Source: Chitinophagales bacterium (lineage in GTDB: Bacteria; Bacteroidota; Bacteroidia; Chitinophagales; JADIYW01). From it: DNA of 36,598 nucleotides. Location: assembly GCA_020848255.1 (NCBI GenBank), contig JADLAJ010000005.1:1-36598 (forward strand), given 5' to 3'. The first letter of the stretch is position 1; each line of letters starts with the position of its first letter. Below, piece by piece: positions 8,183-9,704 of this stretch. A program made the translations under genes and the position numbers. The notes beneath the pieces were generated by a model that was not told the DNA's origin, did no database searches, and saw only the letters and a list, made by a program, of their open reading frames with translations.

Positions 8183-8638
8183 CTATTGTGGTGGTCTGCC
8201 TGCAACGCCTGGTGCCTGATAAGTCGAATCATACTTTTGTCTGAGTATATCATCATACTGATCTGCATAGGTACCAATACGGCGCAATTGTGCCATTATT
8301 TCATCTTCGTCCAAACCTTTTGCTTCACGGATTGTTTTTAACCATACAAAATTATTGTAAGTTGTAAATGCTACATTATATAACAAATCGTTTATGGCTA
8401 ATAATTCTTCATACAAACCTGCTTTATTACTTACATTGGCAATACTCATCACAGGACTCATTACCTGAAAATAAGAACTATTTTCTCTTGGAATAAACAG
8501 TACATCAATCCATACGGAAGCAGAACCTTGTTTCATGGTGTATTGTCCGGGTTTATCGCCTTTGCAAAGCGCCGGATCAACGCCAATTTTCCTGATGGCA
8601 TTTTCTACTAATAGATACGTGTTTTCTAATTCTGACAT
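8183..8638 (-). CDS. YbjN-domain / type III secretion chaperone-like protein
   Basis: 151 aa; VWIDVLFIPRENSSYFQVMSPVMSI...LYEELLAINDLLYNVAFTTYNNFVWLKTIREAKGLDEDEI resembles YbjN-type proteins. Confidence 0.6.
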   Translation of the reverse strand: MSELENTYLLVENAIRKIGVDPALCKGDKPGQYTMKQGSASVWIDVLFIPRENSSYFQVMSPVMSIANVSNKAGLYEELLAINDLLYNVAFTTYNNFVWLKTIREAKGLDEDEIMAQLRRIGTYADQYDDILRQKYDSTYQAPGVAGRPPQ

Positions 8639-8707: not shown

Positions 8708-9265
8708 TTATCTAAAACTGTCATTTTCCCAGTTCAACGGGTTATTTTCAATATAATTAAAAATATCCTTAAATGATTTTTCATTCCTGACAATATGATC
8801 ATGGTAATTATTTTGCCAGATTTTTTCGTTTGGTGTATTTCGTAAATCGTTTATCTGTTTGGTTGTTATAGATTTAAAAATTGCGATAAATGATGAAATT
8901 GATTTTGGCATTCGACGTTGATACGCACTGCTGTGCGTATTGGTATTATTTGTAATATTTTTATTGGTGTCAGTATACACATCTACATTTTCAACATTTA
9001 TAATTTCAATCAAAAAATGAATATGATTTGGCATAATCACACAATTATGAAAAATCATATTTTTGCGAATTTCTATCGACTTATGTATTTCATTTTCTAA
9101 GATAATTCCATTTTCATTTAATAATAAAATACCATTATTTATTTCCCCAAATAAATACATTCTTTCTTGTGTACAAATTGTAATAAAATAAATAGATGGT
9201 TTTGAATAATCCCAATGTCTTAAACGATGTGATTCTGATCGATATTTATTTAGATATTTTGACAT
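8708..9265 (-). mobile_element. REP-associated tyrosine transposase (RAYT), IS200-like Y1 family
   Basis: 185 aa; YFITICTQERMYLFGEI, HUH motif IMPNHIHFLIEI, FKSITTKQIN, IWQNNYHDHIVRNEKSFKDIFNYIENNPLNW. Confidence 0.92.
8920..8941. repeat. Copy of the REP-like palindrome inside the RAYT coding sequence
   Basis: gatacgcactgctgtgcgtatt; the first 21 nt are identical to 9355-9375. Confidence 0.95.
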
Positions 9266-9282
9266 TCTATATCTGTGTTATT

Positions 9283-9376
9283 AAATGATACACACTTTTA
9301 AATGATACGCACTTTTAAATGATACGCACTTTTAAATGATACGCACTTTTAAATGATACGCACTGCTGTGCGTATC
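9283..9376. repeat. 17-bp tandem array (gatacgcacttttaaat) ending in palindrome GATACGCAC-TGCT-GTGCGTATC
   Basis: gatac[g/a]cac begins at 9287, 9304, 9321, 9338 and 9355 (exact 17-bp spacing; first unit has one mismatch). The last unit runs into a perfect 9-bp-stem palindrome, 9355-9376. Confidence 0.97.
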
Positions 9377-9380
9377 TACA

Positions 9381-9704
9381 TTACATTTCAATCTCTAAAT
9401 TCATTTTCGCATTCTTCAATTCACTCAGCGTATGTGTGTCATTCAACTGTTGCGCAATTATTATCCCGTTTTCATAAATATTTAATGCTTTTTTAACCTC
9501 GTCTAATTGTTCATAAACTTTGGCCAAATGGTAGTACGCTCCAACATACTTTTCATCCACAACTAACAGTTTTTCAAATAGTTGCACTGAATTCTCCAAG
9601 CCACCAACTTTTTCATATTCTTTCGCCAATGCAAATAAGGCAAACGTGTCGTTCGGGTTATCAACAATTAACGATTTCAAACGTTCTATTCTAATTGTAT
9701 GCAT
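9381..9704 (-). CDS. Small TPR-repeat protein
   Basis: 107 aa; NDTFALFALAKEYEKVGGLENSVQLFEKLLVVDEKYVGAYYHLAKVYEQLDEVKKALNIYENGI fits consecutive TPR motifs. Confidence 0.85.
   Translation of the reverse strand: MHTIRIERLKSLIVDNPNDTFALFALAKEYEKVGGLENSVQLFEKLLVVDEKYVGAYYHLAKVYEQLDEVKKALNIYENGIIIAQQLNDTHTLSELKNAKMNLEIEM

Follow-up and report, generated by a model that had tools for sequence, protein, structure and literature searches.

The question of why one half of a hairpin should be repeated in tandem directly upstream of a RAYT gene is raised by a 36,598-nucleotide stretch of DNA from a Chitinophagales bacterium (the window), in which the gap between a TPR gene and a RAYT gene is occupied by such an array (Table 1). 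On the plus strand, exact copies of the half-site GATACGCAC begin at 9304, 9321, 9338 and 9355, with 17-bp spacing. An initial annotation had listed five half-sites at this spacing. The positions and four exact copies agree with that description, but the half-site at 9287 has decayed to GATACaCAC, with one mismatch to GATACGCAC. The same annotation correctly described only the last half-site as completed into a 22-nt palindrome (GATACGCAC-TGCT-GTGCGTATC at 9355-9376) and correctly placed the array in the interval from the TPR stop (9381) to the RAYT start (9265). Tandem Repeats Finder reports a period of 17, 4.9 copies and 98% matches, with a score of 161 that exceeds every other repeat in the window by a wide margin. 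The source genome is a 3.13-Mb draft assembly of 381 contigs, to which the array copy number given here refers.

Table 1. Features of the TPR-RAYT locus in window coordinates.
Feature	Coordinates	Strand	Remarks
YbjN / TY-chaperone-like gene	8183-8638	-	
RAYT gene	8708-9265	-	185 aa, with NHIH, WQ and YIENNP; fits TnpAREP subclass 2.4 / Bertels group 4
Second REP copy, inside RAYT frame (linker)	8920-8941	+	Perfect over 8921-8940 (20 nt)
Gap from TPR stop to RAYT start	9266-9380	-	115 bp; occupied by REP and half-REP array
Tandem array of REP 3' half	9281-9364	-	Period 17, about 5 copies
Full REP hairpin	9355-9376	-	9-bp stem, 4-nt loop
GTAG foot of REP	9377-9380	-	Plus-strand CTAC; directly behind TPR stop codon region
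TPR gene	9381-9704	-	3' end is the site of RAYT and REP addition relative to relatives

The arrangement is easier to follow on the minus strand. Here the gap opens with TGTAG after the TPR stop, proceeds through GATACGCAC-AGCA-GTGCGTATC, and ends in repeated copies of GTGCGTATC with an AT-rich tail. The repeat unit on this strand is the 17-bp sequence AGTGCGTATCATTTAAA, and its final copy carries one mismatch. GTAG at 9380-9377 lies directly 5' of the hairpin at 9376-9355 and near the RAYT gene, as is expected of a REP foot, for which the pattern is GT[AG]G. The array therefore consists of one REP whose GTAG foot and 5' arm are present once and whose 3' arm is present about five times. Neither the foot (CTAC at 9377-9380) nor the copy of the palindrome inside the RAYT gene (8921-8940) had been recorded in the initial annotation.

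The identification of the downstream gene as a RAYT is borne out by several features of its protein (P0001). It carries the motifs NHIH, WQNN and YIENNP and matches Pfam Y1_Tnp above its cut-off, and a profile built from its relatives matches the solved TnpArep structure (PDB 4er8, 3.2e-8). Its score against NCBIfam REP_Tyr_transpos is 67 bits, below the 80-bit cut-off. The main text of PMC6006769 describes TnpAREP subclass 2.4 by the motifs NH[IFV]H, WQ and YIxNNP, and reports that intragenic REPs occur in no other subclass and leave the reading frame intact. All three motifs are present in P0001, and in the alignment the variable insert between the HuH and tyrosine motifs holds an in-frame REP at 8920-8941. 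By its motifs, insert and in-frame REP, the protein fits subclass 2.4, which is Bertels group 4. Three more RAYT-family genes that score above the NCBIfam cut-off reside on short contigs of the same assembly (L003, L004 and L005 on C302, C375 and C373), and L005 is preceded by two further strong palindromes (415-442 and 472-497). These genes may represent another subclass or contamination (2.65%).

Within the RAYT gene, the REP carries its GTTG foot on the plus strand (8917-8920) and is translated in frame, between the HuH and tyrosine motifs, as TNTHSSAYQ. Matches to ATACGCACNNNNGTGCGTAT with up to three mismatches occur twice in the window versus 0.08 expected, and no shuffled sequence contains two. 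A search of the 3.13-Mb draft genome for TACGCAC-N2-12-GTGCGTA finds no third place beyond the gap copy and the in-gene copy, and a genome-wide search for the tandem half-site pattern finds none outside the array at 9281-9364. The genome search proposed in the initial annotation recovers two copies, one of them intragenic, and not the high-copy, mostly intergenic population that is typical of REPs. The palindrome accordingly counts as a REP by its structure and its link to a RAYT, not by its copy number. Together, the GTAG-footed gap copy and the GTTG-footed in-gene copy form an inverted pair about 415 bp apart that brackets the 5' part of the RAYT gene. BIMEs and REPINs consist of full REPs that alternate in orientation, as pairs or clusters; the locus has two full REPs with opposite foot orientation at this distance, and the array itself comprises halves only.

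Related genomes place this locus in context. A congener (G002) carries an orthologous RAYT (58% identity) that follows the same TPR gene, and the order TPR-REP-RAYT is as in the window. A comparison of array length among relatives had been suggested, and in this congener it yields one REP in the TPR-RAYT gap and no tandem array. The congener also carries three REPs in its RAYT linker (...DTHSSAYPNNTPADDMHIVDMHSSAYPNDDTHVGAY...) and 15 hairpins of the palindrome genome-wide. The GTAG foot, the in-gene copy and these 15 dispersed copies in a genome with an orthologue all point to the palindrome being the REP of the adjacent RAYT. Relatives that lack a RAYT here have a YbjN-like gene (G005 and G006) or tilS (G001, G007 and G008, the last from another genus) immediately after the TPR gene, with neighbor gene names taken from translations. 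This pattern argues that the RAYT and its REP are an addition at the 3' end of the TPR gene, and that the array itself is lineage-specific.

The array is not unique to this locus. Named GTDB genomes (80 loci) and Bacteroidota genomes were surveyed to give 314 distinct RAYT genes, and arrays were defined as tandem repeats with a period of 9-60 and one edge within a footed REP. A footed REP hairpin is located within 300 bp of 240 of the 314 genes, and 199 of the 314 contain an in-gene REP. The survey yields 55 half-REP arrays in 44 loci. Their periods span 11-57 bp, which rejects a period fixed by the enzyme, and the REP sequences are unrelated between loci. Written on the GTAG strand, the window array is GTAGATACGCACAGC followed by five copies of AGTGCGTATCATTTAAA. 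Flavobacterium caseinilyticum has GTAGAGACGCACTG followed by four copies of CAGTGCGTCTCTACC, which encode SASLP repeats in frame; a Nitrospirae genome has GTAGGGGCGATTC followed by five copies of GCGAATCGCCCCTACAAT; and a Nostoc array has GTAGGGGCGAACG followed by three copies of GTTGTTCGCCC. In the window RAYT's own family, a 27-bp unit is present seven times at one locus (L022) and is read in frame as LHSPENANE repeats. Half copies are also found beside dispersed REPs distant from RAYT genes. These arrays have the architecture in common and not the sequence, and half-REP arrays look like a recurring, apparently undescribed way for hairpins to grow and not a one-off.

Some loci in the survey are of interest for other reasons. 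A RAYT with an intragenic REP (L012 / L098) directly follows an open frame whose translation resembles, by eye, the C-terminal region of a type II CRISPR Cas9. At another locus (L013, G032:C2:2300423-2302056), three RAYT genes resembling subclass 2.4 stand in tandem, and those that were read hold differing REP families. Nostoc sp. S4 carries an array of GGGCGAAT half-sites with mostly 15-bp spacing (L398-L416, G1023:C103:14032-14369), and no full palindrome of GGGCGAAT was found in its genome.

The edges of the arrays are not randomly placed. The inner edge falls within 3 nt of the hairpin center (the apex) in 34 of 55 arrays, whereas 20 would be expected if edges were uniform along the REP and 8.6 +/- 2.5 are obtained when REPs are moved locally by 8-60 nt (maximum 16 in 500 runs). 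The other edge lies just outside the stem, at a median of 6 nt, and the junctions share no more than about 1 nt of homology. In each of the 30 in-gene arrays the period is a multiple of 3, so the linker is evidently translated and its frame kept. Outside genes the proportion is 19 of 25; this class includes arrays that overlap gene ends or neighboring genes, and no contrast is claimed. TnpAREP cleaves at the dinucleotide C|T (PMC8266576), which is found at 2 of 45 array ends, with 2 more on the other strand and no preference. RAYT cutting at the C|T of array ends is therefore rejected as a general rule. In four cases (L353, L354, L340 and L103) the array ends in an arm and a second foot, and the tail that lies between copies is absent from the flank. 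Simple tandem duplication fails to explain these four, and insertion, or the loss of one arm from a full-REP dimer, fits better.

Edges at the apex and base, variable periods and the lack of a cut-site signature implicate the hairpin itself. We consider it probable that the array began as a hairpin-provoked duplication within the REP of the RAYT itself, in which the 3' half was copied, and then grew by ordinary slippage, and that the extra halves need no function. The hairpin would form on a single-stranded (lagging-strand) template, and polymerase would copy one arm as far as the apex. The template hairpin would then re-form and displace the nascent arm. Synthesis restarting at the hairpin base would copy one half and a few bases again, such that the foot-less 3' half of the REP and its short AT-rich tail are duplicated in tandem, eventually to five copies. 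We infer displacement and restart at the hairpin for the first step, which does not resemble classical slippage because junction homology is only about 1 nt; later copies could be added by ordinary slippage between direct repeats. Extra halves inside genes would persist only where the frame is kept, and arrays that end in an arm and foot with a foreign tail would need another step, either insertion or arm loss. Counting against this reading, apex-edged arrays occur in the same loci at 7 of 292 foot-less palindromes versus 25 of 456 GTAG-footed ones (p = 0.04), so that specificity for REPs is weak. A RAYT bound at the GTAG foot could keep hold of the 5' half and so influence the choice of the half that is repeated. 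The polarity described below hints at such protection of the 5' half, and a role for RAYT in making the array is possible.

A more active part for the transposase is conceivable but rather unlikely. RAYT bound to the GTAG foot and hairpin would direct duplication of the foot-less half, whether by cutting and strand transfer or as a polar roadblock to polymerase. TnpAREP binds and cleaves REPs on the GTAG strand only (PMC8266576), and at loci with a one-sided GTAG foot the repeated half is the one opposite GTAG in 16 and the one on the same side in 2 (p = 0.0013). The arrays also cluster at RAYT loci, which are the loci that the search covered. However, the polarity falls to 20 versus 9 (p = 0.06) when all foot types are included, and G002 is mixed in this respect at its dispersed REPs, so a strict polarity rule is rejected and a trend is retained. 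The scarcity of C|T at array ends also speaks against this reading, as do arrays at palindromes that have no foot. The more specific proposal that RAYT on the GTAG foot steers strand-specific copying of the foot-less half, with arrays recording RAYT activity and in-frame arrays building peptide repeats in the linker, is unlikely.

Half-REP arrays might instead be remnants of tandem full REPs whose later copies have lost the foot and 5' arm. Tandem full-REP arrays exist (L020, L065, L118 and L157), and the four arrays that end in an arm and foot, with the tail missing from the flank, fit such an origin. It is nevertheless improbable, because the same precise deletion would be needed in each later copy. 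The copies in the window are identical, the congener has one REP at this spot, not several, and arrays containing a whole REP are rarer than in the shifted-REP null (16 versus 36).

A function for the array itself is very improbable. Its half-sites could regulate the RAYT gene, either as alternative partners for the 5' arm in a leader hairpin or as protein-binding sites. The array does occupy the RAYT leader, downstream of the TPR gene, the gap strand folds better than shuffled sequences (z of -3.5 as DNA and -2.7 as RNA), and a comparable 32-bp array precedes the RAYT at another locus (L060). Most arrays in the survey are located elsewhere, though, with many in genes, the congener lacks one, and neither unit length nor unit sequence is conserved. 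A recognition or landing array for RAYT, another option raised initially, does not stand as the main reading: the footed hairpin recognized by TnpAREP cannot be built from half-sites, and the nearest congener has a single REP with no tandem array. Of the three options originally offered, the evidence most favors slipped or RAYT-associated amplification. The last alternative, a chance microsatellite unrelated to the transposase, had been tied to a lack of other palindrome copies and of cleavage or binding by the RAYT. It might draw on there being just two palindrome copies in the source genome, but it is scarcely credible given that the sole other copy sits in the transposase gene, that the palindrome has a GTAG foot and a REP family in the congener, and that 44 loci carry arrays.

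The half-REP array can be compared with several known systems. Replication slippage and template switching provoked by hairpins likewise place a duplication edge at the hairpin and show very short junction homology. Such slippage typically gives deletions or palindrome corrections, and no case in which a single hairpin arm is duplicated in tandem turned up in the literature searched. As with BIMEs and REPINs in E. coli and Pseudomonas, REPs cluster near the RAYT, and the two in the window are opposite in foot orientation. Unlike BIMEs, in which full REPs alternate with spacers, the unit here is half a REP with no hairpin of its own. Tandemly reiterated REPs of the GTAG families (PMC3733652) are similar in that REP sequence and flanking DNA are joined head to tail, but those reiterations involve whole REPs or dimers and not half of one REP. 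The closest match is TnpAREP subclass 2.4 itself as presented in the main text of PMC6006769, which shares NHIH/WQ/YIENNP, the HuH-Tyr insert, flanking GTAG-footed REPs, in-frame REPs and occurrence in Bacteroidetes. GTAG-footed and intragenic REPs of this subclass are already known from that text, which mentions 'short repeats' in the linker and does not describe half-REP arrays, the apex edge or arrays outside genes. Neither half-REP tandem arrays nor the apex edge turned up in the literature searched, as judged on main texts. Against a background of known REPs, a known RAYT subclass 2.4 and known intragenic REPs, the half-REP array with its apex edge is apparently new.

How REPs spread and change in cells is poorly understood, though RAYTs cut REP DNA in vitro. 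Half-REP arrays, with their edge at the apex and the foot-less half favored, offer a countable footprint of the fate of REP hairpins and a handle on the involvement of RAYT. They also show how a non-coding hairpin turns, by simple means, into a growing peptide repeat within its own transposase. If copying is indeed steered by RAYT, half-REP arrays would report RAYT activity in cells.
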